NCBI RefSeq assembly: GCF_023703775.1
Contig: NZ_CP098514.1
Coordinates: forward strand, 2,825,998-2,889,997
Source: Haloplanus sp. GDY1
Lineage (GTDB): Archaea; Halobacteriota; Halobacteria; Halobacteriales; Haloferacaceae
DNA: 64,000 nucleotides
Reading direction: 5' to 3'
Part shown: positions 39,145-62,221 of the stretch, piece by piece
How the letters are laid out: the number at the start of each line of letters is the position of its first letter
Position numbering within the stretch: position 1 is the stretch's first letter
The notes under the pieces: model-generated
Databases searched by the model: none
The model's input: only the letters and a program-made list of their open reading frames with translations
What the model was told of the DNA's origin: nothing
Made by a program: the position numbers and the translations under genes

Positions 39145-39248
39145 GCCGGTCACCGGCCCCCGGGTCCGCCGCGCGCTCGGCCGCCGCCCCGAACAACGTA
39201 CATTCCATTGACACGACGGCGCGAACCGCCAAAACGCTGTCGTGGCGG

Positions 39249-48754: not shown

Positions 48755-48778
48755 ATAAGTCCTGCCGACAAGACTTAT
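48755..48778. promoter_or_regulatory. inverted repeat ATAAGTC-N10-GACTTAT
   Basis: A perfect 7-base inverted repeat with a 10-base spacer, one arm overlapping the ACTTATG element about 35 bases before the ATG at 48811. It could be an operator for the downstream gene, or a weak terminator hairpin for the upstream one. Confidence 0.4.
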
Positions 48779-48810
48779 GCCGTGTCGTGTGGTACCGTGT
48801 ACCGAACCGC

Positions 48811-49167
48811 ATGTTCGAAGAGTTCTCCGCCGGCTACTACCTCGGACGGCTGTACGTCCAGCCCCACGACGGCGAGCACGCCGTCATCCACCGGACGGAC
48901 CACGAACGGATGAACGAACGCCTCTACGCCACGGGCGAGGGCGTCGAACGCCTCGACGCACCGCTCGTGATGAAACTGGACGGCCGCCACTTCCCGGTGG
49001 TCGGCGAGGAGGGCGTCCCCTCCGGCACGCTCGGCCTCCCCCCGAGCGTCACCAACACCGACCTCCCGGACCGGTGCGAGGTGTTCCTGGCCAAACCCGA
49101 CCGCGCCGCCGAACTCCTGCGCTATTCGGGGTACGACCCCGGCGGCGTGGCGGACGAGGCCGTCTGA
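48811..49167 (+). CDS. haloarchaeal conserved hypothetical protein (DUF5802-like)
   Basis: 118 residues from the ATG at 48811 (MFEEFSAGYYLGRLYV). An in-frame ATG 24 bases upstream is less likely. It contains YVQPHDGEHAVIHRTDHERMNERLY and ends FLAKPDRAAELLRYSGYDPGG. The pattern recalls a small soluble protein widespread in haloarchaea. No catalytic motif or signal. It precedes the Vms1-like gene by about 40 bases, on the same strand. Confidence 0.8.
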   Translation: MFEEFSAGYYLGRLYVQPHDGEHAVIHRTDHERMNERLYATGEGVERLDAPLVMKLDGRHFPVVGEEGVPSGTLGLPPSVTNTDLPDRCEVFLAKPDRAAELLRYSGYDPGGVADEAV

Positions 49168-49206
49168 GCCGCAGAGTAGAAGGCCCCCGCGCTCGCTCGT
49201 GTGTCC

Positions 49207-50097
49207 ATGCTCGACTCGTTGCTCGGGCGGGCCGAACTGAAGGCGCGCATCGAGGAACTCGAAGAGGAAAAGCGGCACCTCGAACGTCGACTCGACGCCG
49301 AGAGCGACCGCCGCGCCGACGCCGTGACCGCCCGACAGGAGGCCGAGGAGCGCGTGAATCGCCTCGAGGACCGGGTCGCGGACCTGGAGGGACGGCTCGA
49401 CGACGGCGACGCCGACGCGGGCGCCACCCTCGCCCCGCGCGGGACGACCGACCTCCGCGGCGACAGACTGGACGAGGTACTCGCCCGCCTCCGGAGCGTC
49501 GAGACCGGGTCGGAGGGCGCGCTGACCGCGATGGTCGGCGAGTCGGTCCCCGACGCCGTCGCCGACGCCCTCGGCGACCGGGCCCCCCTCGTCGACCGCG
49601 CCGCCCCCTGTCTCGTCTGTACCGACGACGCGGGCCTCGTGAGCGTCGCCCTCGCCCCGCCGCTCGCGCCCGCACCCTTCGTCGAGTGGGGCGACGGCTT
49701 CCGCCTCGATTCCGACTGGTTCCACCCCCCGGACGGCCTCACCGTCGCGCTGGTGCGTTCGGACCTGTTCGCGGTCGGGCGCTACGACGGCGGCGCCCTC
49801 GTGGACGTGGAGACGGTCGAGACGGACGTGCAGGGCAGCCACTCCAAGGGGGGCTTCTCGCAGGCGCGGTTCGAGCGCCGCCGCGACGAACAGGTCGCCG
49901 CCCACCTCGAGGACTGCCGGGACGCCCTCGACGCCCGGGACCCGGACTCGCTCGTCCTCCTCGGCGAGCGGACCGTCCTCGACGACCTGGATCGCGAGGC
50001 CAGCGCCGTCGCGGCCGTGGACGCGACCGGCGAGCCCGAGGCGGCCCTCCACGACGCCGTCGACGACTTCTTCACGACTCGGCTGACGCTGCTGTAG
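49207..50097 (+). CDS. Vms1/ANKZF1-like peptidyl-tRNA hydrolase
   Basis: 296 residues. The N-terminal ~70 residues form a coiled coil (ELKARIEELEEEKRHLERRL). The C-terminal part carries SHSKGGFSQARFERRRDEQ, the Gly/Gln-containing signature of the eRF1-like Vms1/ANKZF1 family, followed by a domain ending DALDARDPDSLVLLGE. These proteins free nascent chains from stalled large ribosomal subunits. The ATG at 49207 is chosen; a GTG 6 bases upstream is possible. The 3' end overlaps the convergent glycosyltransferase gene by 26 bases. Confidence 0.87.
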   Translation: MLDSLLGRAELKARIEELEEEKRHLERRLDAESDRRADAVTARQEAEERVNRLEDRVADLEGRLDDGDADAGATLAPRGTTDLRGDRLDEVLARLRSVETGSEGALTAMVGESVPDAVADALGDRAPLVDRAAPCLVCTDDAGLVSVALAPPLAPAPFVEWGDGFRLDSDWFHPPDGLTVALVRSDLFAVGRYDGGALVDVETVETDVQGSHSKGGFSQARFERRRDEQVAAHLEDCRDALDARDPDSLVLLGERTVLDDLDREASAVAAVDATGEPEAALHDAVDDFFTTRLTLL

Positions 50098-52153
50098 CCC
50101 TCCCGCTCGCTTCCGTCTCGAGGCTCACGCCGAGGACGTAGTCGCCGTCCGGGCCGACGTACGTCCCCTCCCGCCCGCAGTCGGTGGCGTCCACACAGAT
50201 CCGCGCCTCGGGCGGCCAGATCACCCGGACGCCGTCGCCGGTTCGCTCGACGCTCGCGGTCTGTCGGTAGGTGACGGTCCGTCCCTGCGGCTCCACGAAC
50301 GTGACCAAGAGGGTCACCTCGGTGATCCCCGCGGGGAGCCGCGCGGCCCCGGCGTCGCCGTGGCTCGTCACCGCCACGCCGTCGGCGCCGACCGTCCAGT
50401 CGACGGTGACGGGTCCGTCGACTCGGCCCACCTCGTACCGGACGGTCTCCGCCTCGGTGACGACGCTCGCCCGCGCCCGGGTGGCCTGCGCGGGCACGCC
50501 GAGGGTCGTCGTCGCCGTCACGCGCGCGCCGCGCTCGACCGACAGCGGGGTGAGCACGGGGTCGACCGACGTCTCCGCGCCGGTCCACTCCCCACGATAC
50601 GTGAACCGATAGGGGCGCCGGTCGCCCGTCGCGTCGAGGGCGTGGAACCGCTCCACGTCGCCCTCGTTGATGACGTACACCGCGTCGCCGCCGAACCCGG
50701 GGTCGTTGCGGAGGTACTGGAACGGGTGGTTGAGCCAGTCGCCGTACGGATCGGGCAGGAAGACGACGGCGTTCTCCAGCGACCGCTGCTCGAACGGTTC
50801 GTACGTCGCGGCGAGGTTCTCGGTTCGGAGGCGGTTCTCGTCGTACGGCTCGGCGACGGCGCCGGCGCCAGCCACGCCGACCACGCCGACGCCAGCGAGG
50901 AGGGCGACGGCGAGGACGGCCCGCCGCTGTTGCCCGTCGAGTCGGCCGGTCGCCGCCCGGAGGCGCCGCCAGCAGACGAGCGCTCCCGCGGCGCCGAACG
51001 CCGAGAGCGGGAGGAGGAGGTCGAAGTGGTAGTACGGGCCGAGCAGGCCGATCAGGCCGCTGTTCAGCCCGTTGAGCGTCCCCCAGAAGTAGGCGTTGCC
51101 GAGGACGACGCTGGGCACGAGGCCGGCGACGACGACGCGGAGGGCGGGCGCCGACAGGGTGGGATCCGCGATCACCTCGCGGTCGGTCGGGAGGTCGGCG
51201 AGGCCGACGAGGGCGAGGATGGTGCCAACCGGCCCGGCGACGGTCCACTCCGCGGTCAGCGTCCCCAGGAGCCTGGCGGTCGTCTCGGCGGCGAGCGCCG
51301 GCGTGTACGTCCGTTCGTACCCCAGCAGTTCGTGGTGACCGAAGCCGATGCCGTCGTCCGGCCCGAACGCCTTGTAGGGAAAGAGAAGCGGGTCGCCGGT
51401 CACCACGGCGTTGTACGCGAGGGCGAGGCCGACGCCGGTCAGTCCGAGGCCGGCGACGGCGAGCAGGCGGGTGAGCGTCGGCCGGAACCGGTCCGACCCC
51501 CGCGTCCACCACAGCGACCCGAGCGCGTGGGCGACGAACGGCGCCGCGAAGAGGACGGCGGTGTAGGGGCGGGCGAAGAAGGCGAGGCCGATGGCCGCGC
51601 CGGCGACGGCGCCCCACCGCGGCGAGTCGCGGCGCATCGTCCGGACGTACGCGAGCGCGAAGGCGAGGTTGCACAGCGTCGTCGGGGCGTAGGGGAGGAA
51701 GACGGCGGAGATGAAGAGATACAGGGGGGTGCCGATCAGGGCGAGGACGGCGAGCAGTCCGGTTCGGCGGTCGAAGGCGGCGACCGCGAGTGCGTACACG
51801 AGCCCGGCGTTGCCGGCGGCGACGAGGCCGAGCGCGAGGTTCGCGTCGCCGAGTACCTTCCCGACCGCGAACACGCCCGCGGCGACGGGTGCGTACTTCG
51901 GGTAGTAGCGGAGGTCGGCGCCGGCGGTGTCGGCCACGAAGAACCAGGGCCGCACCAGCGCGTCGAGTTCGCCCGGATAGAGGAAGAGCTGTCCCTCCAG
52001 CAGCATCGCGGCCTGCGTGAGGTAGACGGCCTCGTCGTCGTTGACGGAGTGGTACGGAAAGAGATCGATCGCCAGCCAGTAGACGACGAGGCCACAGAGG
52101 GCGACGAGGACGGTTGCCAGGAGTCGGTCGCGTCGGGGCCGCGTGACCGACAC
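50072..52153 (-). CDS. GT-C membrane glycosyltransferase, GT39-like (paralogue 1)
   Basis: About 693 residues from a GTG at 52153 that overlaps the ABC ATPase stop (TAGTG). About 12 TM helices fill the first 430 residues. The first external loop holds FPYHSVNDDEAVYLTQ with an Asp-Glu pair typical of polyprenyl-phosphate-sugar-dependent GT-C enzymes. A conserved external segment PDPYGDWLNHPFQYLRNDPG follows, then a beta-rich C-terminal domain. It is a clear paralogue of the 55996-58011 gene. It should add sugars to lipid- or protein-linked glycans at the outer face. Last gene of the iron locus. Confidence 0.85.
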   Translation of the reverse strand: MSVTRPRRDRLLATVLVALCGLVVYWLAIDLFPYHSVNDDEAVYLTQAAMLLEGQLFLYPGELDALVRPWFFVADTAGADLRYYPKYAPVAAGVFAVGKVLGDANLALGLVAAGNAGLVYALAVAAFDRRTGLLAVLALIGTPLYLFISAVFLPYAPTTLCNLAFALAYVRTMRRDSPRWGAVAGAAIGLAFFARPYTAVLFAAPFVAHALGSLWWTRGSDRFRPTLTRLLAVAGLGLTGVGLALAYNAVVTGDPLLFPYKAFGPDDGIGFGHHELLGYERTYTPALAAETTARLLGTLTAEWTVAGPVGTILALVGLADLPTDREVIADPTLSAPALRVVVAGLVPSVVLGNAYFWGTLNGLNSGLIGLLGPYYHFDLLLPLSAFGAAGALVCWRRLRAATGRLDGQQRRAVLAVALLAGVGVVGVAGAGAVAEPYDENRLRTENLAATYEPFEQRSLENAVVFLPDPYGDWLNHPFQYLRNDPGFGGDAVYVINEGDVERFHALDATGDRRPYRFTYRGEWTGAETSVDPVLTPLSVERGARVTATTTLGVPAQATRARASVVTEAETVRYEVGRVDGPVTVDWTVGADGVAVTSHGDAGAARLPAGITEVTLLVTFVEPQGRTVTYRQTASVERTGDGVRVIWPPEARICVDATDCGREGTYVGPDGDYVLGVSLETEASGRATAASAES

Positions 52154-53295
52154 TATTCGGCCGCGTCGTCGGGTCGCTGGTCGCTCGGGAACCACGCGAG
52201 GTCGTGATCGGCGTCGAGTTCGATCCGGACCGAGCAGTCGAGCGGGATGGTCTCGTCGTGGTTGTGCATACACTGGACGGTCGTGTCGTCGTCGAGGCGA
52301 ACCTCGTAGAGGATGGTCGGTCCGAGGTAGCGCCGCGAGACGACGCGGCCGTCGCCCTCGCCGTCGGTGGGCACGGCTCGGATGTCGTCCGGCCTGACGA
52401 GCACGTCGATGCGGGTTCGGTCGTACGTGCTCGCCAGCCCGTTGATCTGGTCGCGCGGGATCGGACCGAGCCCCGTCGTCACCTCGCCGCCGTGGACGTA
52501 GCCGGGGAGGAAGCTCGCGTGCCCGAGGAAGCCGGCGACGAAGCGGGATGTGGGCTGCTGGAACACCTGCTCGGGGTCGCCGACCTGTTCGATCCGCCCG
52601 TCGTTCATGACGGCCACGCGGTCGGAGATGGACAGTGCCTCCTCCTGGTCGTGCGTGACGGAGACGGCGGTCACGCCCGTCTCTTTGATGATGCGTCGGA
52701 CCTCCTCGCGCATCTCGACCCGCAGATCCACGTCGAGGTTCGAGAACGGCTCGTCGAGCAGGAGCACGTCCGGTTCGGGCGCCAGCGAGCGGGCGAGCGC
52801 CACCCGCTGTTGCTGGCCGCCGGAGAGTTCGTCGGGGTAGGAGTCGCGCTGGGCCTCCAGCCCCACGAGGTCGAGCAGTTCGTCGATCCGCGCCTCGCGG
52901 GCGCCGTCGTCCCAGTCGTCGATGCCGAACGCGACGTTCTCGGCGGTGGTGAGATGCGGGAAGAGCGCGAACTCCTGAAAGACGACGCCCACGCCGCGGC
53001 TCTCGGGGTCGACGAATCGGTCGGGGCCCGAGACGGTCGTCCCGTCGAGCGCGACTTCGCCCACGTTCGGGCGTTCGAGCCCCGCGATGAGGCGGAGCGT
53101 CGTCGTCTTGCCACAGCCGCTTGGGCCGAGCAGGGTGAGGATCTCGCCGTCGTGGACCGAGAGCGACAGCTCCTCGATGACCCGCTCGGACCCGTAGGAC
53201 TTCGAGACGTCGTCCAGTTCGAGGACCGGCGTTCCGTTCTCGTCCAGCGGCCGATCCGTCGTCTCCTCCGTCGCGTGTATCGTGCTATTTGACAT
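52153..53295 (-). CDS. Fe(III)-type ABC transporter ATP-binding protein
   Basis: 380 residues. Walker A LLGPSGCGKTTTLRLIAGLE, signature LSGGQQQRVALARSL, Walker B DVLLLDEPFSNLD and switch His in SVTHDQEEAL are all intact. A C-terminal TOBE region (about 250-370) places it in the FbpC/PotA group. The likely partners are the binding protein and permease encoded 5-7 kb away at 58091-60910, because no other permease is near. The start overlaps the end of a possible 76-residue gene by 11 bases; the stop overlaps the GT-C start. Confidence 0.9.
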   Translation of the reverse strand: MSNSTIHATEETTDRPLDENGTPVLELDDVSKSYGSERVIEELSLSVHDGEILTLLGPSGCGKTTTLRLIAGLERPNVGEVALDGTTVSGPDRFVDPESRGVGVVFQEFALFPHLTTAENVAFGIDDWDDGAREARIDELLDLVGLEAQRDSYPDELSGGQQQRVALARSLAPEPDVLLLDEPFSNLDVDLRVEMREEVRRIIKETGVTAVSVTHDQEEALSISDRVAVMNDGRIEQVGDPEQVFQQPTSRFVAGFLGHASFLPGYVHGGEVTTGLGPIPRDQINGLASTYDRTRIDVLVRPDDIRAVPTDGEGDGRVVSRRYLGPTILYEVRLDDDTTVQCMHNHDETIPLDCSVRIELDADHDLAWFPSDQRPDDAAE

Positions 53296-53515
53296 CGTAT
53301 CCCTCCTGTGAGAGGCTGACCGGCGTCGAGAACGCGGGGACGCCGTGGGGAACGGTCGCCGCCACGTGGCCGTAGCCGTCCGCCGCCGCCCGGACGTGGG
53401 CGACGAGCGCGGCTCGGAGCAGCCACACCAGCGGCGGTCGGATGGCGTCGACGGGCCCGCTCGCTACCGTCGTCGGGCGCGGTCGGTCGTCGATGGTGGG
53501 GTGGTCGGTGGCCAT
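53285..53515 (-). CDS. possible small protein before the ABC ATPase
   Basis: 76 residues (MATDHPTIDDRPRPTTVASG at the start, ending VSLSQEGYDVK). A mid region RPPLVWLLRAALVAHVRAAADGYG is moderately hydrophobic. The stop overlaps the ATPase start by 11 bases, as in translationally coupled genes, and the composition is less Arg-rich than the frame upstream of the ATG. No family recognised. The 266 bases between it and the dehydrogenase stop hold no other gene or iron-box copy that I can see. Confidence 0.4.
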   Translation of the reverse strand: MATDHPTIDDRPRPTTVASGPVDAIRPPLVWLLRAALVAHVRAAADGYGHVAATVPHGVPAFSTPVSLSQEGYDVK

Positions 53516-53781
53516 GGGGTCTCGGAGCGTTCCGACGTTCCTGGGTGGGATCGTCCCTTCCGGAGTCGTCCGTCGAGTGACGTGTAGATCCTCGGGTGGG
53601 TTCAATTCATCGATCGTCGGCAGGACGGGTGATCCGATCCTCGGATCCGGCGGACGCCCCCCGCGGGTGGGTTTCGAAGGCGACGCGCTCGTCCCGAGTC
53701 CGCGGCGGGTCGGACCGCCGGGTCGACGGCCCGATCGGCGCACGCACCGCCGGCGCGTCCGGGATCGACGGGGCGGAGACA

Positions 53782-55422
53782 TCACAGCACCTCGTCGACG
53801 TGATCCGCCACCTTGAGCGCGAGGGCTGCGATCGTGAGGGTGGGATTCATCGCGCCGCCGGTGACGAAGACGCTACTCCCGGCGATCCAGAGGTTGTCGA
53901 GGTCGTGGGTTCGCATCCGGGGCGAGACGACGCTCTCGTCGGGATCCGTCCCCATCCGTGTGGTCCCCATGTGGTGGAAGGCGGGACCGGTCGCCTCGGG
54001 GCCGACCTGCCACGTGATCTCGACGCCCAGTTCGGACAGGATCGCCTCCTGAATCTCGTTTGCGCGCCGGAGCGACCGCTCGGTCGCCTCGTCGATCCCC
54101 CAGTTGATCTCGGGGACGGGGTTCCCGTGATCGTCCGTCGTCGACGGATCCAGGCCGACGTAGTTCCCCTTTCGGGGACGTTGGCCGACGAGGCCGCCCA
54201 TCGCGATGCTGTTCCCGTAGCCGTCACGGAGCGACGCGAGGAGGTCGTCGCCGAACTCCTCGCTCCCGAGCGCCATCTCGACCGGCGACGGGCCGGCGTA
54301 GTTGAAGAACTCCAGTTTGAGCGGCGTGAACGCGGCCCGGTCGCCCTCGGCCCGCGGGATTCCCTCCTCGGTGCCCTCGGTCGGATCGTCGTAGAACTGG
54401 TGGGTTTCGCTCGTGAGAAACCCGACGTGGTTCTGGCGGGTCCGCTCGTCGACGACGCCGCCGGTGCCCGCGAACAGGTGGTCCATGAGGTACTTGCCGA
54501 CGAGTCCGCTGGAGTTGGCGAGGCCGTCCGGGTAGGCGTCAGACGTCGAGAGCAGGAGCAGCCGCGGCGTCTCGACGCCGCCGCAGGCCACGACGAACTG
54601 GCGTGCCGTCTGTCGGTGGGTCTCGCCGTCGGGCGTGGCGTACACCGCCGCCTCGACCGTCTCCCCCGCTCTGTCGTGTTCGAGACGCTGGACCGGAACC
54701 CGATCCAGAATTCGCGCCCCCGCCTCCCTCGCGTCGTCGACGGTGCGGGTCGCGTCGTACTTCGCGCCGGACGGACAGACCGGCTTGCACGTCCCGTAGC
54801 CGACACATTGTGACTCCCCGTCGTACGGTTCCGAGTTGCGAGCGTTCGGGACCGAGTGCATGGCGACGCCGAGCCGTTCGCACGCGTCGGCGAAGATGGA
54901 GTCGCTGTACGACGGCGGGAACGCGGGCATGGGATGTGGTCGCTCGCGTGGCGGTGCGAAGGGGTTGTCCGACGCACCCGCGACGCCGAGGGCCTCCTCC
55001 GCGCGGGCGTAGTAGGGTCGGAGGTCCTCGTAGTCGATCGGCCAGTCGGACGCGACGCCGTACCGCGACCGCGTTTCGAAATCCCCCTCGTGGAGGCGCA
55101 TCACCATCCCCTGCCAGTGGAGCGTCGTGCCACCCACACCCTTGACGCGCGCCCGGTTGAGCGGATAGAACCGCTCGCCCGTCGAGGAGTACGCGTCCCG
55201 TTCGCCGCCCATGTTCCAGACCGACAGCGGGCCGTGAGCCGGGCGGATCGCCCGCTCCATCCGTTCGAGCCGTTCGTCGGCGTCGAACCGCTCGCCGGCC
55301 TCCAGCACGACGACGTCGTGCCCGCGCTCGGCGAGCGTGTGTGCGACCAGTGCCCCCGCCGGCCCGGCGCCGACGACGCAGACGTCGACCCGCTCGGAGG
55401 GCGTCCGATCGCGGTCCGCCAT
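53782..55422 (-). CDS. GMC/FAD sugar dehydrogenase large subunit with 3Fe-4S signature
   Basis: 546 residues from the ATG at 55422, overlapping the subunit 3 stop (ATGA). The FAD motif VVGAGPAGALVAHTLAERG is near residue 17. VKGVGGTTLHWQGMVMRL and a C-terminal HHMGTTRMGTD with MNPTLTIAALALKVAD carry the GMC active site. Cys206, Cys212 and Cys216 (C-x5-C-x3-C in SQCVGYGTCKPVCPSG) match the spacing of the 3Fe-4S cysteines of bacterial FAD glucose dehydrogenase. It should oxidise an aldose or sugar acid, probably exported with its Tat-bearing partner. No cytochrome subunit is adjacent. Confidence 0.88.
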   Translation of the reverse strand: MADRDRTPSERVDVCVVGAGPAGALVAHTLAERGHDVVVLEAGERFDADERLERMERAIRPAHGPLSVWNMGGERDAYSSTGERFYPLNRARVKGVGGTTLHWQGMVMRLHEGDFETRSRYGVASDWPIDYEDLRPYYARAEEALGVAGASDNPFAPPRERPHPMPAFPPSYSDSIFADACERLGVAMHSVPNARNSEPYDGESQCVGYGTCKPVCPSGAKYDATRTVDDAREAGARILDRVPVQRLEHDRAGETVEAAVYATPDGETHRQTARQFVVACGGVETPRLLLLSTSDAYPDGLANSSGLVGKYLMDHLFAGTGGVVDERTRQNHVGFLTSETHQFYDDPTEGTEEGIPRAEGDRAAFTPLKLEFFNYAGPSPVEMALGSEEFGDDLLASLRDGYGNSIAMGGLVGQRPRKGNYVGLDPSTTDDHGNPVPEINWGIDEATERSLRRANEIQEAILSELGVEITWQVGPEATGPAFHHMGTTRMGTDPDESVVSPRMRTHDLDNLWIAGSSVFVTGGAMNPTLTIAALALKVADHVDEVL

Positions 55423-55970
55423 CACGGCTGTGGCCCCCGCTGGTAACTTGCGAGCCCGCCGGGGTGTCCCTGCGGGTTCTCTATGCCGACCAGCTCGCCG
55501 CCGGTCGGGGACGCGTACAGGGCGAACAGCAGTTCGTTGACGACGTAGTAGCGAACCCGTTCGACGTCGGACCCCTCCGGGTCGGGGTCGGTGGTGTCGA
55601 CGTTCATCCGTCGGAGCGCCTCCTCGCGATCCGACCGATCGAGAGCCGCGAACCCCTCGCCGTACCACGCCTCCGCGTACTCGTCGAGATACCCGGTCGC
55701 GTCCACGACACCCGCCACGTGGCCCGGCTCGTCCTCGGCCCGCCCCCGAACGTATCGGCCGACGAACGCGTCGACGTTCTCGACCGCCGACGGATAGAGA
55801 ACCTCCGCGGCGGCGACCAGCGTCGCCAGCTCGTCGTCGGTGACGGGCCGGTCGGCGTCGTCGCCCGACCCGCCCCGCTCGTCGTCCGACGACCGAAGGA
55901 CCGCACCACCGCCCACGGCGACGCCGGCGGCCGCCAGCGCCGCGAGCGCATCGCGTCGAGTCAATCTCAT
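55422..55970 (-). CDS. gluconate 2-dehydrogenase subunit 3 family protein with Tat signal
   Basis: 182 residues. The N-terminus MRLTRRDALAALAAAGVAVG is a twin-Arg signal. The mature part (DDELATLVAAAEVLYP, VDAFVGRYVRGRAEDEPGH, WYGEGFAALDRSDREEALRR) matches the small subunit of gluconate/glucose dehydrogenases. In bacteria this subunit carries the catalytic subunit through the Tat system. The TTTAGG-type operator sits 9-24 bases before its ATG, so this pair is likely iron-controlled. Confidence 0.87.
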   Translation of the reverse strand: MRLTRRDALAALAAAGVAVGGGAVLRSSDDERGGSGDDADRPVTDDELATLVAAAEVLYPSAVENVDAFVGRYVRGRAEDEPGHVAGVVDATGYLDEYAEAWYGEGFAALDRSDREEALRRMNVDTTDPDPEGSDVERVRYYVVNELLFALYASPTGGELVGIENPQGHPGGLASYQRGPQP

Positions 55971-55978
55971 TGGCGTGG

Positions 55979-55994
55979 ATTAGGTCAACCTAAA
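55979..55994. promoter_or_regulatory. iron-box-like operator, copy 1 (ATTAGG-TCAA-CCTAAA)
   Basis: A 16-base inverted repeat matching TTTAGG-N4-CCTAAA with one changed end base. It begins 9 bases before the ATG at 55970 and lies 2 bases after the GT-C stop. The half-sites TTAGG/CCTAA are those of DtxR/IdeR-family metal repressors. Confidence 0.7.
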
Positions 55995-55995
55995 C

Positions 55996-58011
55996 TTAGG
56001 GGTTGGGTTCGCCGGCGACCAGTTCGCTCCGGACGAAGACGCCGTCGGGGGCCGACGACGGAATGTACGCTGCCGCGCCGCCACAGGCGCGGGCGTTGCG
56101 ACAGCGCTCGATTCTGGGCGTGAGCGCACGGACGGTCCCGTCGGCGGCCTCCACGGGGAGGTCGAGTCGGTACGCGAACCCGCCGCCGGGTCCGTAGTCG
56201 ACGAACACGGTCAGTCGAACGTCGTCCCGACCGTCGACCGCGACGGTTTCGTTCTCCACCGGACGGACGTCGCCCGCGACGTGGATCCGTCCGTCCTCGA
56301 TCGAGAGGTTCACGGCGAGGCTGTCGGTGACGTTCGGCGCGACGTAGTAGACGCTGCCCTCGTCGGTCGCGATGCGAGCCGTGACGCCGATCGCCCCGTC
56401 GGGGATGCCGACGGCGGTATCGAGGCGAACGCTCCCCCCGGAGACGTCACGGACTCGCTGCAGGCGAGCGTCCTCCGGCGATCCCGCGTACGGCGCCCAG
56501 CCCCCGCGATAGACGTAGCGGTACGCGCGTCGGTCGGGGAACTCGTCCACCACTGCGAAGGGTTCGTCGTCGATGGCGTAGACGGTGCGGCCGTCGAACC
56601 CGGGGTCGTTTCGCAGCGGTTGGAACGGGTGGTTGAGCCAGTCGCCGTAGGGGTCCGGCAGGAGGACCAGGGAGTTCCGCGGCGGGCCCGCCTCGAACGG
56701 TTCGTACACGTCCTCGTAGGTGTCGGTCGCCTCCATGTTCTCCGCGATCCGCTCGTCGAGGTCGTTCGCCGTGACCGATCCGACCGCCCCCGCACTCACG
56801 ACCAGGACGAGGACGAACGCCGTGCGGGCCAGCCGCCGATCCACCCGCTCGTCGAGAGCGCGATGGAGCAGACGGCCACCCCAGAGTATCCCCGCGGCCG
56901 CGAACGCCGCCGTCGGCAGGAGCAGATCGAAGTGATAGTACGGGCCGAACGCCGACACGAGACCGTCCCCGGCCCTGTCGATGTCGCCCAGGATGTTGAA
57001 GTTCCCCCAGAAGTAGACGTTACCGGCGACGATCGAGACGAACAGCCCGCCGATCACCCCCTCACGGGCCGAGGGGCGGCGGTGAACCGTGCGGGCGATC
57101 CCGAGGACCGCGAGTGCGGCTCCCAGCGCCCCCCCGGCGATCCACTCCGTGAAGAAGAGTTCGACGACTTTGCCGTTCGCTCGCATCGCCAGCTCCGGGG
57201 TGTAGTGGATCTCGTGTGCGAGGATCTCCCGGTGACCGAAGCCCAGCCCGTCGCGCGGGGCGAACGCCTCGTACGGGAACAGCCACGCCGACCCCGTTAC
57301 GAGGGCGTTGTATCCGAGCGTCGTTCCGACGCCGGCCAGTCCGAGCGCCGCGACGATGGCCTGCCGCTCCAGCGCCCCCTGCCAGTCCCGGTAGAGTGAC
57401 CACAGTGCGTGACAGACGAACGGCGCCGCGAACAGGACGGCCGTGTAGGGGCGGGCGAAGAAGGCGAGTCCCACGGCCGTGCCGGCGACGGCAGCCCACC
57501 GACGGTCGCCGGTTCGGTCGGCGCGGAGATAGCCGTACGCGAACCCGAGGTTCAGGAGCGTCGTCGGTGCGTACGGGAGGAACACCGACGAGTCGACGAG
57601 AAAGAGCGGCGACGCGAGGACGAACCCGCCGGCCACCAGCCCGGTCGGCCGGTCGAAGACCTCGTCGACGACCGCGACGACGAGCGCGAGATTGGCTGCC
57701 GCGATCCCGACGAGCGCCAACCGGTACCCGCCGACCAGCCGACCCAGCGCGAACATCGCGGCGGGGACCGGCGTGTATTTCGGATACAGTCGGTCGCCGT
57801 TCTCGACGAAGAACCAGGGCCTGAAGGCGCCCTCCAGGGGCGGCCGGAGGTTCAACTGCCCCTCGAGGAGCATCGCGGCCTGCTGGAGGTACACCCCCTC
57901 GTCGTGATTCAGCGAATGGTACGGGAACACCTGCGTGGAGACGATCCACACGGCCGCCGCACCGGCGAGGGCGACTGCCGCGGCGGCGAGGGTGTAGGTC
58001 CGACGGCGCAT
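55996..58011 (-). CDS. GT-C membrane glycosyltransferase, GT39-like (paralogue 2)
   Basis: 671 residues with the same plan as the 50072-52153 gene: FPYHSLNHDEGVYLQQ in the first loop, about 12 TM helices to residue ~400, PDPYGDWLNHPFQPLRNDPG, and a beta-rich C-terminal part (about 450-671) ending VRSELVAGEPNP. The two proteins are clearly related along their whole length. It lies 79 bases after the permease gene and directly before the dehydrogenase pair, so it is embedded in the iron locus. A polyprenyl-phosphate sugar donor and surface glycan acceptor are inferred. Confidence 0.86.
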   Translation of the reverse strand: MRRRTYTLAAAAVALAGAAAVWIVSTQVFPYHSLNHDEGVYLQQAAMLLEGQLNLRPPLEGAFRPWFFVENGDRLYPKYTPVPAAMFALGRLVGGYRLALVGIAAANLALVVAVVDEVFDRPTGLVAGGFVLASPLFLVDSSVFLPYAPTTLLNLGFAYGYLRADRTGDRRWAAVAGTAVGLAFFARPYTAVLFAAPFVCHALWSLYRDWQGALERQAIVAALGLAGVGTTLGYNALVTGSAWLFPYEAFAPRDGLGFGHREILAHEIHYTPELAMRANGKVVELFFTEWIAGGALGAALAVLGIARTVHRRPSAREGVIGGLFVSIVAGNVYFWGNFNILGDIDRAGDGLVSAFGPYYHFDLLLPTAAFAAAGILWGGRLLHRALDERVDRRLARTAFVLVLVVSAGAVGSVTANDLDERIAENMEATDTYEDVYEPFEAGPPRNSLVLLPDPYGDWLNHPFQPLRNDPGFDGRTVYAIDDEPFAVVDEFPDRRAYRYVYRGGWAPYAGSPEDARLQRVRDVSGGSVRLDTAVGIPDGAIGVTARIATDEGSVYYVAPNVTDSLAVNLSIEDGRIHVAGDVRPVENETVAVDGRDDVRLTVFVDYGPGGGFAYRLDLPVEAADGTVRALTPRIERCRNARACGGAAAYIPSSAPDGVFVRSELVAGEPNP

Positions 58012-58090
58012 CTCAGTCCCCCGCGACCCCCGTCTCGGGGCCGTGATCGAGCGTCGCCTGCCGTCGTGTCGTGGCGTCGGTCATCGTGCG

Positions 58091-59719
58091 TTACTGGTCG
58101 GACTTCCGACCACCCTCCTGTGCCAGGATGACCGCCATCGAGAGCCCGGACACGACGACCAACACGAGCGCCGGCACGGCCGCCTGCCCGTACAGCCCCG
58201 CCTCCTGCACGCGCCAGATGTAGGTGACGAGCGTGTCGAACCGGAGCGGACGGAGGATGAGGGTCGCCGGTAGCTCCTTCATGGTCGTGAGGAAGACCAG
58301 CGCCGCCCCGGTCGCGATTCCCGGCAGGACCAGCGGCAACGTTATCGACCGGAAGGCGGCCAGCCGCGACCGGCCGAGCGTGCGCGCCGCTTCGACCAGC
58401 CCGCGGTCAACCTGCATGCGTGACGTCCGTATCGGCCCGATGGCCTGTGGCATGAACCGGACGACGTAGGCGAACACGAGCAGCGGGATCGTCTTGTACA
58501 GCGCCGGGACCACGTCGAGGCTGAAGCTCACGAGCGCGATCGCGAGGACGATCCCCGGGGTGGCATAGCCCACGTACGGTGCCCGGTCCGCGACGGTCGC
58601 GACGACGGACTCGGAGACCGCCGACCGGAGCGCGATCGGGAGCGCGACGAGGATCGCCCCACCGGCCGCGAGCAGCGACACGTACACCGAGTTCCACCCG
58701 TAGGACCACGAGAACGACATGGAGCCGGTCGCGTATCCGGGGCCGGTTCGCAGGAACCACATCCCGAAGATGCCGATCGGGAGCAGGATGGCCACGGCAC
58801 CGATTCCTGCCGGTAGCAGCGTCGCCGGGTACCGCCAGCGACCGAGGTCGAGGGTCGTCGCGCCCCGGTTCCCGCGGCTCTCGTAGGCACCCGACTCGTC
58901 GATGCCGATTCTGGACTCGATGGCCAGGATCACCGCCGTGACGGCGAAGAGCTGGAGCGACAGGAGCGCCGCGTAGTCCCGCATGAACGCGTTGTATCGG
59001 GCGTAGATGAACTGCGTGAACACTTCCACGCGCATGATGTTCGGGGTGCCGAAGTCGGAGAGCGTATAGAGAGCAACCAGCAGCGCGCCGGCGGTGATCC
59101 CCGGCGTGATCTGCGGGAGCGTGATGCGCTTGAACGCCTCCCATCGCCCGGCGTTGAGCGTGCGGGCCGCCTCGACGAGCGAGGCGTCAAGCGACAGGAG
59201 GGACGCTCGCGTCGTCAGAAAGACGTAGGGATACGTGTAGAGCGTGAGGACGACCGCGGCGCCGACGAATCCGTACACCGTCGGCAGCTTCGGCACGCCC
59301 AGTGGCGCCAGCGCGTTCGTGAGTGCCCCCCGCGGACCGAACGCCGAGACGGCGGCGAAGGCACCGAGATAGCTCGGAATGGCCAGCGGGAGCGCGATGA
59401 CGACGGTCCAGAACCGCTGTAGCGGGAGCTTGGCCTGTACCGTGAGGACGGCGAGCGGAACGCCGACCACGACGCTCGCTCCGGTTACGACGGCGACCAG
59501 CGCGACGGTCCGCACCAGGACCCGCATCGTGGTCGGCGCGACCGTGAGGTCGATGGCTCGTGACCCGAGAGTGAACACGTCGACGACGAGCCATCCGAGC
59601 GGGAGGACGAGAGTGGCGGAGACGGCGGCCGCGAGCAGGGTCAGCCCCGTCCCTATCGACGTCGCTTCGTCCGCCGTGACACGCGAACCGAACGACGTGA
59701 CCCACTCCCGGACCCGCAT
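58091..59719 (-). CDS. Fe(III)-type ABC transporter permease (FbpB-like, fused halves)
   Basis: 542 residues with about 12 TM helices in two homologous halves. Each half has an ABC-permease loop: VEAARTLNAGRWEAFKRITLP near 190 and VEAARTLGRSRLAAFRSITLP near 445 (EAA-type motifs). This fused layout is typical of FbpB-type ferric and related importers. The start is 3 bases after the binding-protein stop, so they form one operon. The matching ATPase is the separated gene at 52153-53295. Confidence 0.92.
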   Translation of the reverse strand: MRVREWVTSFGSRVTADEATSIGTGLTLLAAAVSATLVLPLGWLVVDVFTLGSRAIDLTVAPTTMRVLVRTVALVAVVTGASVVVGVPLAVLTVQAKLPLQRFWTVVIALPLAIPSYLGAFAAVSAFGPRGALTNALAPLGVPKLPTVYGFVGAAVVLTLYTYPYVFLTTRASLLSLDASLVEAARTLNAGRWEAFKRITLPQITPGITAGALLVALYTLSDFGTPNIMRVEVFTQFIYARYNAFMRDYAALLSLQLFAVTAVILAIESRIGIDESGAYESRGNRGATTLDLGRWRYPATLLPAGIGAVAILLPIGIFGMWFLRTGPGYATGSMSFSWSYGWNSVYVSLLAAGGAILVALPIALRSAVSESVVATVADRAPYVGYATPGIVLAIALVSFSLDVVPALYKTIPLLVFAYVVRFMPQAIGPIRTSRMQVDRGLVEAARTLGRSRLAAFRSITLPLVLPGIATGAALVFLTTMKELPATLILRPLRFDTLVTYIWRVQEAGLYGQAAVPALVLVVVSGLSMAVILAQEGGRKSDQ

Positions 59720-59722
59720 CGG

Positions 59723-60910
59723 TCACCCGAGTACGTCAGCCTCTCGCATGAGTTCGAGCGTCGGTTCGAGGTCCGACAGCTCCGAGAGGTCGATGTTCGG
59801 CGGATTCAGCTGATCGACCGTGGGCAGATCGCCCGGCGGTGCCACGCCGGAGATCATCGGATACGCGAAGCTGACGGTCGTGAAGAACTCCTGTGCCTCC
59901 GAGGAGAGCAGGTGGCGAACGAAGTTGTTGACCAGTTCGCCTTTCTCCGTCCCCTCGATTCGCAGTGCTCCGGCGACGTTGACGAGTGCCCCGGCGTCGT
60001 TTTCGGTGAACGCGAGGCCCAGGGGCGCGTCGGGGCGGCTGTTCTTGACGCGAAGGGCGTAGTAGTGGTTGGCGAAGCCCGCGGTGAGCGCACCGTCGGC
60101 GACCTGACTGGAGATGACGAACTCGTTCGGGTACTGCTCCGTTCCCGCCTCGCGCATCGAGACGAGCCACTCCCGGGCGGCGTCCTCGCCCCGGAGGAGT
60201 CGCATCGCGGTCACGAACGATTTGAAGGCCCCGTACGTCGGCGCCCAGCCCATCGTTCCGCGGAGCGCGTCCGTGTTCGGAATCTCCCGAACCTTGTTCG
60301 GGACGTCGCCCTCGCTCAGCTGCTCGGTGTTGTACGGGATGCTCCGTGCTCGCCCCGCGACGCCGACCCACGCGTTGTCCTCGCCCCGGAAGCCGCTCGG
60401 GACGGGCTCGACGACCTCGTCCGGGAGCGGTTCGTACGCGTCGTTGTCGGCAACGAACCCCAGCGAACTCGCGTCGATGGACCAGAAGACGTCGGCCTGC
60501 GGCGCTCCGGCCTCTACCTCCTCGACGACGGTCTGGGCCAGCGACGACGAGGAGGCGCTGCTGGCGAAGACCTGGAACTCGGGGTAGATCTCCTGCAGCA
60601 TCTCGACGAACTCGTAGTAGATGCCGCCCTCTCCGCCGCCGATGTAGAGGTTCAGCGACCCGGACAGGTTCGGAAGCTCCTCGATCGAGGTCCCTCCGGG
60701 GGCGGACCGGCCCTCGACGAGCGCGCCCGAGCCCCGGAACGCGCTCAGCGCCGGAATCTCGACGTTCCCCGAGCCGTTCGTTCCTTCGGTTCCATCGCCA
60801 CCGCCACCGCCACCTCCCAAGAGGCCCGAACAGCCGGCCAGACCGGCCGTCGAGCCAGCTGCGAGTGTTCCCAGCACCTGTCGTCGACTGAGGCGGGTGT
60901 CTCGCTCCAT
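59723..60910 (-). CDS. Fe(III)-binding lipoprotein of the ABC importer (FbpA-like)
   Basis: 395 residues. SRRQVLGTLAAGSTAGLAGCSG combines a twin-Arg start with a lipobox, so it is exported and lipid-anchored. A Gly-rich linker precedes the binding domain. SGSLNLYIGGGEGGIYYEFVE opens it, VFWSIDASSLG follows, and NHYYALRVKNSRPDAPLG contains the adjacent Tyr pair that binds ferric iron in FbpA/FutA proteins. A TATA box and a TTTAGG operator sit directly before the ATG, predicting iron-repressed, leaderless expression. First gene of the ABC operon. Confidence 0.92.
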   Translation of the reverse strand: MERDTRLSRRQVLGTLAAGSTAGLAGCSGLLGGGGGGGDGTEGTNGSGNVEIPALSAFRGSGALVEGRSAPGGTSIEELPNLSGSLNLYIGGGEGGIYYEFVEMLQEIYPEFQVFASSASSSSLAQTVVEEVEAGAPQADVFWSIDASSLGFVADNDAYEPLPDEVVEPVPSGFRGEDNAWVGVAGRARSIPYNTEQLSEGDVPNKVREIPNTDALRGTMGWAPTYGAFKSFVTAMRLLRGEDAAREWLVSMREAGTEQYPNEFVISSQVADGALTAGFANHYYALRVKNSRPDAPLGLAFTENDAGALVNVAGALRIEGTEKGELVNNFVRHLLSSEAQEFFTTVSFAYPMISGVAPPGDLPTVDQLNPPNIDLSELSDLEPTLELMREADVLG

Positions 60911-60914
60911 ATGA

Positions 60915-60930
60915 TTTAGGCCACCCTAAA
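60915..60930. promoter_or_regulatory. iron-box-like operator, copy 2 (TTTAGG-CCAC-CCTAAA)
   Basis: A perfect 6-4-6 inverted repeat that begins 5 bases before the FbpA-like ATG and ends just short of its TATA element (CAAATATAAG at about 60936-60944). A repressor bound here would cover the transcription start. Confidence 0.8.
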
Positions 60931-60935
60931 ACCAC

Positions 60936-60944
60936 TTATATTTG
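60936..60944 (-). promoter_or_regulatory. TATA box of the iron ABC operon
   Basis: AAATATAAG in gene direction, centred about 30 bases before the ATG at 60910 and directly upstream of operator copy 2. Confidence 0.65.
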
Positions 60945-61038
60945 CCGATTCGAAGACTCAGCGGCCAGTTCGCGGGGTTCGTCGGCCAACGCGAGATATT
61001 TCCGTCGGAGCGGGGCGGCGACGCTCGCGTGACTGCGC

Positions 61039-62193
61039 TCAGTCGTCCGCGGGGACCGGCCGTTCGATGGACCGCAGTTCGTCGAGGCAGTCCAGCCAGT
61101 CGTGCATGTGCTCTCCCACGTAGGCGAGGAACTCGCCGTTGCGGTAGTCGGCCTCCGCCTCCATCAGGGCGTCGGCCATCGCCGCGAAGGCCGTCGCGTA
61201 GGTCACCTCGCCGTCCGGGTCGGCGTCGTCGACCAGTTTCCACAGGTGTTCGTTGAGTTCCAGTCCCGCCACCTCGTTGTGCAGGTCGTCGAAGGTGGAG
61301 CGGGGCGCCTTGTCGTGTCGACAGAGCGGGTCGCCCGTGAGGATCTCCTTCCCCAGCAGGTCCGCCGCTCGCTTGAGGAACACGCCGCTCCAGATGTCGT
61401 CGAACCGGCCGACCGACCACTCGTTGTCGTCCATCGGCAGCTGGTAGAACGCGGGGATCACCTCCCGGCGGAAGGCGAGGTTCATCGAGCAGACGGTGAG
61501 GTACTGGCCGGGTTCGGCGACGAAGTCCGGGCCGAAGTCCGCCGCGTCGAGACGCGTCTCGGCCTGTCCCTGCAGGTCGCCGTCCATCAGGATGCGGACC
61601 GCGTCGAGGTCGGGCACGTTCGTCCAGAGGCCCTGCGAGGCGATCACGCTGTCGACGTGTGTCGTCCCCGTCTCCACCGTCTCGTCCATCGCCGCGTAGG
61701 GGTACCCTCGGGGGTAGAGGCCGTGGTCCTCGGCGCCGTGATAGAGGACGTTCACCCAGTTCTCGTCCGAGCGCACCGACTCCACGTCCCGGTCGGCGTG
61801 CAGGTTCCGGAGGTGCGTCCCGAAGAAGTCGACGTCCTCGTGGGGCCGGGTGTCGTCGTCGATGAAGACGCCGTAGGGGTGGTCGTGCGCCCAGAGGTAG
61901 AGCAGCCCGAAACTCGTCTGTGCGTGGCTCTTGGCGGGGATCAGGTGGCCGTACTCGCCGACCCCGTGGTCCTCCAGCCACGCCTCGCGCCGACTCCCGT
62001 CGAACACCTCGCCCGAGACGCCCAGGTCGTCGAGCATCGACTCCATCTCCCCCGTCGGGCAGTGGTCCTCGGTCACCAGCACGAACTCCAGCCGGTCCGT
62101 GTCGACCCCGTGGCGCTCGGCGTTGTCGACGTAGGATCGCACGCATTCGTACTCCCTGATCGTCGGGACGATGACGCAGATGTCCTCGCTCAT
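61039..62193 (-). CDS. reversibly glycosylated protein (UDP-arabinopyranose mutase, GT75) homologue
   Basis: 384 residues from the ATG at 62193. IVPTIREYECVRSYVD opens a GT-A-like fold and FIDDDTRPHEDVDFFG supplies the DDD metal/nucleotide site. RGYPY, SQGLWTNVPDLDA, CSMNLAFRREVIPAF and GRFDDIWSG match, in order, the conserved blocks I recall from plant RGP proteins. RGPs interconvert UDP-arabinopyranose and UDP-arabinofuranose; some members bind other UDP sugars. It is soluble and cytoplasmic. An iron-box operator and a TATA-like element precede the gene, tying it to the iron locus downstream. Confidence 0.85.
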   Translation of the reverse strand: MSEDICVIVPTIREYECVRSYVDNAERHGVDTDRLEFVLVTEDHCPTGEMESMLDDLGVSGEVFDGSRREAWLEDHGVGEYGHLIPAKSHAQTSFGLLYLWAHDHPYGVFIDDDTRPHEDVDFFGTHLRNLHADRDVESVRSDENWVNVLYHGAEDHGLYPRGYPYAAMDETVETGTTHVDSVIASQGLWTNVPDLDAVRILMDGDLQGQAETRLDAADFGPDFVAEPGQYLTVCSMNLAFRREVIPAFYQLPMDDNEWSVGRFDDIWSGVFLKRAADLLGKEILTGDPLCRHDKAPRSTFDDLHNEVAGLELNEHLWKLVDDADPDGEVTYATAFAAMADALMEAEADYRNGEFLAYVGEHMHDWLDCLDELRSIERPVPADD

Positions 62194-62205: not shown

Positions 62206-62221
62206 TTTAGGCCCACCTAAA
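62206..62221. promoter_or_regulatory. iron-box-like operator, copy 3 (TTTAGG-CCCA-CCTAAA)
   Basis: A perfect 6-4-6 inverted repeat 13-28 bases before the RGP-like ATG at 62193, overlapping the ATATTT element that is the best TATA candidate. Blocking by a bound repressor is expected. It also lies about 25 bases before the divergent TATA-like element on the ppk1 side. Confidence 0.8.

Follow-up and report, generated by a model that had tools for sequence, protein, structure and literature searches.

The minus-strand operon at 50072-62193 of a 64,000-nt stretch of Haloplanus sp. GDY1 DNA (GCF_023703775.1, contig NZ_CP098514.1, 2,825,998-2,889,997, forward strand; hereafter the window) is probably part of a haloarchaeal regulon of the DtxR type, probably iron-sensing, which works as one system. 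Judged from sequence, its predicted importer, RGP homologue, GT-C enzymes and GMC dehydrogenase with Tat subunit, together with a dolichyl-phosphate hexose transferase (GT2), are connected by a shared operator, linkage or distribution, and it is highly probable that they form a single metal-repressed functional system. On this basis, a modified surface sugar may help haloarchaea to capture scarce iron. If true, metal control would be tied to archaeal surface glycosylation, and a task would be given to widespread families without an assigned role, namely the DUF7846 GT-C enzymes, the haloarchaeal RGP proteins and the haloarchaeal Gluconate_2-dh3/GMC pairs. Our literature search found no paper on this gene combination, and some members may have been listed earlier (e.g. 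Leyn and Rodionov 2015). The features are as follows.

62207-62220, no strand assigned: operator 1, TTAGGCCCACCTAA, exact match, lying 13 bp upstream of the start codon of RGP
61039-62193, minus: RGP / GT75 NDP-pyranose-furanose mutase homologue, 384 aa (Pfam RGP, MtdL structures)
60916-60929, no strand assigned: operator 2, exact match, ahead of the binding-protein gene
59723-60910, minus: predicted FbpA-like Fe(III)-binding lipoprotein (PDB ferric-binding proteins, 1.5e-46)
58091-59719, minus: FbpB-like permease with two BPD_transp_1 domains (Pfam 3.9e-23, two stretches)
55996-58011, minus: GT-C glycosyltransferase 1 with C-terminal DUF7846 (Pfam and fold of predicted model)
55980-55993, no strand assigned: operator 3, exact match, ahead of subunit 3
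55422-55970, minus: Tat-signal small subunit, Gluconate_2-dh3 (Pfam 2.9e-8)
53782-55422, minus: GMC FAD dehydrogenase, 546 aa, C-x5-C-x3-C (FAD-GDH, 4.3e-86)
53285-53785, minus: small ORF, scar of replaced native permease/binding-protein genes (blastn to L128)
52153-53295, minus: ABC ATPase with TOBE_2 domain (Pfam 5.7e-36)
50072-52153, minus: GT-C glycosyltransferase 2, DUF7846, native copy, GTG start (Pfam 2.3e-44)

Genes of the operon

The preliminary description had counted nine consecutive minus-strand genes, one of them doubtful. Eight are intact, with families and coordinates confirmed, including all the families that it named (RGP, FbpA, FbpB, GT-C, subunit 3, GMC and ATPase), while the ninth, ORF 53285-53785, is a scar. 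This ORF has no Pfam match, and the stretch 53401-53623 matches the native permease/binding-protein junction of the same-genus locus L128 (blastn, 74.7% over 245 columns, 5e-36), about 1.3 kb of which is missing from the window; the ORF is therefore ruled out as a gene. Beyond the operon, the plus-strand ORF 48777-50141 has no Pfam match either.

The first gene encodes an RGP protein (Pfam RGP 2.6e-15, 56.9 bits against a gathering score of 23.8), the best solved matches of which are 7yua/7xpr (4.3e-21), 7XPR being MtdL, a GT75 NDP-pyranose mutase (PMC9937993). The metal-site residues DDD 112-114 and R162, which aligns to the reactive Arg159 of MtdL, are invariant in 20 homologues. The MtdL substrate residue Gln229 is not kept, Met237 taking its place in all 20, and plant RGP members also have Met at that position. 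We regard the protein as a pyranose-furanose mutase homologue, with activity predicted from its family, and the furanosyl part of the preliminary interpretation holds at the level of the enzyme family (RGP/GT75 membership). Halobacterium glycans and glycolipids contain galactofuranose, and Haloferax volcanii has an RGP-family match.

The FbpA-like lipoprotein has a ferric-iron-binding protein as its best solved match (1.5e-46), and its tyrosine pair is conserved, with NHYY in 38/38 ORFs and in 19/19 aligned and Y283 and Y284 invariant. The two-domain permease and the ATPase both lie in the window operon. A thiamine or aminoethylphosphonate importer was rejected on NCBIfam scores far under cut-off, in contrast to the strong ferric-binding matches. 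The importer is of the FbpABC type, with Fe(III) transport predicted. FbpA-like proteins occur in 186/194 genomes (E <= 1e-40), and their genes are also found without RGP, in some such cases with no operator close by (L150, L151); the glycan arm is thus dispensable for import. Energy-dependent iron uptake has been measured in Halobacterium, and PMC11349517 states that the gene responsible has not been identified.

The two GT-C enzymes have a C-terminal DUF7846 in common, and the second is 75% identical to its copy in L128. The predicted model of the first (pLDDT 86) has a GT-C fold, with ArnT matched at 3.8e-7 (VIA-align Z 24.2), and it resembles ArnT, OST and ALG12 with Z 24-27 and rmsd 4.6-5.5 over about 400-450 residues. 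Among solved structures, matches came from the fold search, and none from a sequence profile of the GT-C family. Acidic residues D37 and E38 of the predicted first outer loop are invariant in 30 homologues. Elsewhere in the same genome, outside the window, lies a dolichyl-phosphate hexose transferase (GT2, NF041391; 404 bits against a cut-off of 375), and the flippase-family protein belongs to PF03706. The AglR/AglS and mycobacterial decaprenyl-phosphoarabinose/Emb pathways are comparable lipid-phosphate-sugar routes.

The GMC protein is best matched by FAD glucose dehydrogenase (4.3e-86, residues 9-544) with the Cys triad aligned; the Cys motif is present in 78/80 and H[HQ]MG in 80/80 of the GMC ORFs. 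Its refined start codon overlaps the stop codon of subunit 3, which has a weak Tat-signal match over its cut-off, and the twin-arginine is found in 37/38 ORFs of this subunit. Since Pfam gave no cytochrome c subunit among the genes of the window operon, the predicted pair is not classed, at the scope of the operon, as a member of a complete FAD-GDH complex.

Shared operator and probable regulon members

The three operator-like palindromes seen earlier before three of the genes were borne out, all being exact TTAGGN4CCTAA (55980, 60916 and 62207). Only exact palindromes are striking, because a window search allowing 2 mismatches gives 6 sites against 2.27 expected. Exact sites number 14 in the whole genome, where the backward-read control gives 1, and 80 related GMC loci hold 184 matches against 1 and 0 for controls, which rules out chance palindromes; in a few genomes the count is not above control (G014 4 vs 9, G029 4/4, G093 1/1, G139 3/3). 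The operator lies ahead of RGP, in the same position class, in 75/81 RGP loci (80/81 with <=1 mismatch), within 250 bp upstream of the FbpA-like gene in 67/81 loci with that gene, and upstream of subunit 3 in 59 of the 70 GMC loci holding it, the latter two counts being of exact sites. Directly upstream of the GT2 gene it occurs in only 31/77 loci, which was counted against the best explanation. Neighbour clustering was done by label propagation, which loses members, and the GT2, flippase and epimerase counts taken from this clustering are lower bounds.

The window operator is identical to the 14-bp site that PMC8464063 proposes as the consensus for a single IdeR/DtxR dimer. Haloarchaeal regulators of this type include Idr1, Idr2, SirR and TroR, and Leyn and Rodionov 2015 described a 'ferR' regulon signal in haloarchaea (cited through PMC11349517 and PMC6978704). 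The window genome has two PF02742 (DtxR family) matches over cut-off. DtxR relatives are also able to sense manganese. This operator is also found ahead of binding proteins of the siderophore type in Halobacterium salinarum and Haloarcula vallismortis, 7/9 of the operator-linked lipoproteins tested in these two being over the Peripla_BP_2 cut-off, and in H. salinarum it also stands ahead of a diaminobutyrate (dat) transaminase and SufC. Among the 11 sites of the window genome outside the window, at most a few precede a gene of obvious iron use, an HbpS-like gene being the thin iron-gene evidence there. H. salinarum DSM 3754, which serves as a genetic model, carries the regulon as well, and this makes the importer, the glycan and the dehydrogenase accessible to deletion analysis.

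Both the window genome and Hrc. vallismortis have a plastocyanin-domain DUF5059 lipoprotein right behind the operator, and H. salinarum likewise has a DUF5059 lipoprotein. These lipoproteins favor an alternative, which we consider unlikely, in which the GMC enzyme would pass electrons from a surface or environmental sugar via its Fe-S cluster, directly or via the blue-copper lipoprotein, to Fe(III) and so free iron by reduction; the Cys triad being kept in an operon without cytochrome also agrees with it. However, the importer belongs to a type that binds Fe(III), the copper protein is tied to GMC by the operator alone, and the distribution of GMC, which follows that of RGP, would be left unexplained.

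In the iron-starvation proteome of Sailer 2024 (PMC11349517), the table of proteins changed at least 10-fold includes the UPF0104 protein HVO_1859 (+11.6) and the GalE-family epimerase HVO_0655 (+12.7), while neither RGP nor GMC nor the FbpA-like protein appears there; the siderophore protein IucC was down, against simple expectation. At family level, UPF0104 proteins and GalE epimerases also occur in part of the RGP/GMC loci.

Linkage, distribution and proposed function

Conserved linkage of the glycosyltransferase and dehydrogenase genes with the importer, on which the preliminary description had depended, was examined in related genomes, and linkage, shared operator and near-perfect co-occurrence were found. 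The 80 GMC loci were hand-chosen from the GMC match list (best matches plus spread) and are not a random sample; of the 81 RGP loci, 42 came from the GMC-locus set and 39 were chosen from the RGP match list. The FbpA-like gene is next after RGP in 79 of the 80 loci having both, a GT-C gene is present in 81/81 RGP loci, and RGP is found in 56 of 63 named loci. RGP and GT2 occur in the same 154/194 genomes. Of these 194, 151 have GMC together with RGP, 1 has GMC only, 3 have RGP only and 39 have neither. The p-values calculated for this take no account of phylogeny, against which the pattern within genera is a better safeguard: seven genera have species with both genes as well as species with neither, while in each of two genera (g8, g37) one species is without GMC only. 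The spread across haloarchaeal genomes rules out a strain-specific locus. At phylum level, RGP was found in 40/294 genomes (E <= 1e-40), all 40 falling in the classes own, same family or same order. The locus of the GMC enzyme and that of its Tat subunit complement each other, subunit 3 lying inside the RGP operon in 10/10 genomes whose GMC locus is without it and in 0/14 whose GMC locus holds it.

In the window genome, sequence comparison indicates that the ancestral subunit 3-GMC-operator set was lost and that a divergent copy lies inside the iron operon, which is xenologous replacement. The window operon is a mosaic, and genes therefore do get inserted, which would fit unrelated neighbors sharing the region and operator by accident; operator, linkage, co-occurrence and complementary subunit placement contradict this reading, and we give it hardly any credence.

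The explanation that we find best overall, and about which we are evenly divided, is a metal-repressed system in which a surface sugar is oxidised to an Fe(III) ligand feeding the importer. When iron is scarce, the repressor would leave the TTAGGN4CCTAA sites, RGP would make an NDP-furanose, the GT2 enzyme would move the sugar to dolichyl phosphate, the flippase would turn it outward, and the GT-C enzyme would attach it to a glycan, protein or lipid of the cell surface. The GMC enzyme, escorted out by subunit 3, would oxidise the surface sugar, and the resulting acid or keto group would hold Fe(III) near the membrane for the FbpA-like lipoprotein. Against it we count that FbpA-like genes occur in genomes without RGP, that two genomes keep the glycan genes with neither importer nor operator, that the operator directly precedes GT2 in a minority of loci and is at control level in a few genomes, that few obvious iron genes follow the sites outside the window, that the operon has no cytochrome subunit, and that DtxR relatives can respond to manganese. 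Among the parts of this reading, action of GMC on the product of the glycan pathway is somewhat favored, and Fe(III) holding and delivery as the purpose falls a little short of an even chance. In its most specific form, a surface-tethered 'glycan siderophore', old within the class and under one DtxR-type operator, with a dolichol-delivered, probably furanosyl sugar oxidised in place by the Tat-exported Fe-S GMC enzyme and loading FbpABC, the proposal is tentative and rather less likely than not. In the preliminary interpretation, iron starvation induced extracellular sugar oxidation, or a furanosyl-rich surface glycan, which helped to hold or deliver ferric iron. This is supported in part: the linkage, the co-occurrence and the DtxR-type operator ahead of iron genes in two named haloarchaea stand, as does furanose at family level, and an oxidised sugar may serve to bind Fe(III) or to bring it to the importer.

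Of the RGP loci, two (L146, L221) lack importer and operator alike, and their genomes, which have no GMC match, keep RGP, GT-C and GT2. Because the glycan genes persist there, the glycan appears to have a use of its own, as would be expected if iron starvation led to a remodelled S-layer or altered glycolipids that serve protection or permeability, with GMC a co-regulated respiratory sugar dehydrogenase and neither involved in iron capture. Nevertheless, these genomes lack all three of operator, importer and GMC, and RGP adjoins the importer gene in 79/80 loci, which makes remodelling an improbable account. A further alternative separates the glycan pathway altogether, with GMC oxidising diffusible sugars to aldonic or keto-aldonic acids, which would act as weak Fe(III) chelators. 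The nearest solved GMC relatives oxidise free glucose or fructose, and in iron-limited Pseudomonas putida 48.8% of the glucose carbon was lost in the form of gluconate, which the authors interpret as overflow (PMC4767421), but free sugar oxidation does not predict the presence of RGP in 151/152 GMC genomes, and we regard it as quite improbable.

Comparison with known systems

Like the FbpABC/SfuABC ferric importers, the set has a two-domain permease, a TOBE ATPase and a binding protein of the Fe(III) type that carries the Tyr pair; unlike them, the window operon is headed by a nucleotide-sugar mutase homologue and ended by GT-C enzymes, and the haloarchaeal operon often carries an exported dehydrogenase. 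With the GT75 mutases (plant RGP/UAM, bacterial MtdL) the RGP protein shares a Pfam RGP match over cut-off, the DDD motif and the reactive Arg, and it differs by Met in place of MtdL Gln229 and by its DtxR-type operator. In comparison with the bacterial FAD-GDH/FDH complexes, the full-length catalytic homologue, the Cys triad and the Tat-type small subunit are the same, whereas the haloarchaeal set has no cytochrome c in the operon, a metal-type operator and a distribution tied to RGP. AglD-type pathways carry out dolichyl-phosphate-sugar glycosylation (PMC5898192) and have in common with the set a GT2 equivalog over cut-off, a PF03706 protein and the GT-C fold, the haloarchaeal set differing in that it is under operator control and is coupled both to an importer and to an exported dehydrogenase. 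Finally, the IdeR/DtxR iron regulons share the 14-bp consensus (PMC8464063) and siderophore-type genes under the operator, to which the haloarchaeal regulon described here adds glycan and dehydrogenase members.

The window operon and its hybrid make-up

The window occupies G000:C1:2825998-2889997 (contig C1 of the GDY1 genome) within a 3.44-Mb haloarchaeal genome, and the genes which the preliminary description had named on its minus strand are real: the RGP/GT75 mutase homologue, the FbpA-like binding lipoprotein, the FbpB-like permease, two DUF7846 GT-C proteins, the Gluconate_2-dh3 small subunit (subunit 3), the GMC dehydrogenase and the ABC ATPase. The small open reading frame already held to be doubtful is instead a scar, as seen by alignment to the corresponding operon in another genome of the genus (L128), where the order is RGP, binding protein, permease, ATPase and GT-C. 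Window positions 52000-53409 align to that operon at 83.8%, reaching the 3' end of its permease, and positions 53401-53623 align at 74.7% to its permease/binding-protein junction, with 1.3 kb of L128 absent in between, which makes the operon of the window a hybrid. Judged by sequence comparison, its native part comprises RGP, the ATPase and the second GT-C, and its divergent block the binding protein, permease, GT-C, subunit 3 and GMC. RGP is 86–91% identical to the window copy in three same-genus genomes of the sample, while the binding protein is only 47–59% identical in those genomes versus 81% in G185, which likewise has two GT-C genes.

The divergent block, there consisting of binding protein, permease, GT-C and subunit 3, also stands in the RGP operons of G185 (L130), Halomicroarcula rubra (L178) and Haloarcula salina (L179), where the importer is 82–87% identical and a second, native-type GT-C is retained. 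From this arrangement, the block seems to move between lineages. A polyphosphate kinase gene on the plus strand (62359-63999) is divergent from the operon, its start lying some 140 bp away from the operator of RGP, and positions 38001-40000 hold the window's extremes of G+C (0.779) and AT skew (0.238).

Operator, gene linkage and the dehydrogenase

The three palindromes noted earlier, at 55980, 60916 and 62207, each match TTAGGN4CCTAA exactly, and this 14-bp site is the consensus proposed in PMC8464063 for one IdeR/DtxR dimer. The window genome has 14 exact sites versus one match to the backward-read control; in 80 GMC loci (1.55 Mb; best matches plus a spread), the operator occurs 184 times, and two control patterns give 1 and 0 matches. 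In a few genomes it is no more frequent than the control. Within the 80 loci it lies upstream of RGP in 41/42, of the binding protein in 32/43 and of subunit 3 in 59/70. Among 81 RGP loci (those within the GMC loci plus 39 further ones), the exact operator precedes RGP in 75, and in 80 if one mismatch is allowed.

The expected linkage in related genomes was borne out, the binding protein directly following RGP in 79 of the 80 loci with both, and GT-C being present in 81/81. The locus without the operator before RGP (L146) has RGP, GT-C and the dolichyl-phosphate hexose transferase GT2, lacks the importer, and belongs to a genome without a GMC match; Halocatena marina (L221) resembles it in its RGP, GT-C and GT2 and in lacking a GMC match, and the exact operator was not found in its 22-kb locus. 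Counting against a single system, FbpA-like proteins occur in 186/194 genomes, some without RGP; of five loci of this kind, one (L149) has the operator near by, two have it farther away and two lack it.

The GMC protein (E ≤ 1e-60) is found in 152/194 haloarchaeal genomes and RGP in 154/194. Both occur in 151 and neither in 39, as the suggested co-occurrence search revealed; GMC stands without RGP in one genome (G104) and RGP without GMC in three (G157, G183, G191), and seven genera include some species that have both genes and others that have neither. In 42/80 loci GMC is accompanied by RGP, binding protein, permease and subunit 3. Where a GMC locus lacks subunit 3 (10/80), that gene lies inside the RGP operon in 10/10 of those genomes, and of the 14 genomes compared that have subunit 3 next to a solo GMC, 14/14 lack it at the RGP locus. 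At the window genome's ancestral solo locus (compare same-genus L110), GMC, subunit 3 and operator have been lost, and 2.5 kb not aligning to L110 (L157:2152-4640) stands in their place; the sole GMC match is the copy in the window operon, which fits one function kept as a single copy. The GMC dehydrogenase is thus predicted to be part of the same system as RGP. A cytochrome partner gene was not found among the window operon genes.

The signal of the regulon

Two DtxR-family genes of the window genome score above cut-off. Operator sites number 12 in H. salinarum DSM 3754 and 16 in Hrc. vallismortis, and of nine lipoproteins tested behind them, seven exceed the siderophore-type Peripla_BP_2 cut-off, one falls just below and one has no match. 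In H. salinarum, sites also precede diaminobutyrate transaminase, SufC, the RGP operon and the GMC gene. Elsewhere in the window genome, 11 further sites are found beside GT2, a DUF5059-plastocyanin lipoprotein, an HbpS-like haem-related gene, an Fe-S protein, a PAS kinase and others. Judged by these genes, the regulon's signal is likely to be iron; manganese is a possible alternative.

DUF5059 lipoproteins begin 5–8 bp behind the operator in 3/3 genomes examined, and are candidates for the regulon's extracytoplasmic electron carrier:

L118:12217-14694, window genome, with a plastocyanin-type copper domain
L277:2098-4563, Hrc. vallismortis, with a plastocyanin-type copper domain
L273:1907-4000, H. 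salinarum

A PAS-histidine-kinase-type gene stands 0–1 bp behind the operator in the window genome (L118:4050-5285) and Hrc. vallismortis (L269:1068-2288). Two ferritin-like genes of the window genome (L117:2184-2756, L121:2101-2646) are each less than 1.4 kb from an operator, not directly behind it.

The glycan arm and a possible mechanism

Neighbour clustering of the 80 GMC loci revealed the recurrent GT2 gene, which scores above the NCBIfam cut-off as a dolichyl-phosphate hexose transferase and is present in the same 154 of 194 genomes that carry RGP, and in 71/81 RGP loci. The operator is directly upstream of it in 31/77 loci only; the window genome's copy, at about 0.965 Mb on the window's contig, has one 33 bp upstream. 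A PF03706 flippase-family gene occurs in at least 21/80 GMC loci and a GalE-like epimerase in at least 16/80, and GT-C protein 1 is modelled with a GT-C fold across residues 1–522 (mean pLDDT 86). Together, GT2, the PF03706 protein and the GT-C fold make plausible a pathway in which an NDP-furanose would be made first, carried as a dolichyl-phosphate sugar, flipped outward and transferred at the outer face.

Such a surface-linked sugar might then be oxidised outside the cell by the GMC dehydrogenase and hold Fe(III) for the importer. We favour this reading tentatively, because GMC tracks RGP in distribution, pairs with a Tat subunit, and has its operator, and often its operon too, in common with an Fe(III)-type importer. 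With the same genes in view, ferric reduction and surface remodelling both appear unlikely, to an equal degree, and free sugar acids are less probable still. In the literature searched, a scope outside which the 2015 regulon paper (Leyn and Rodionov) falls, the arm of glycan and dehydrogenase genes is unnamed; every component is a member of a known family, and a haloarchaeal iron regulon is already known.
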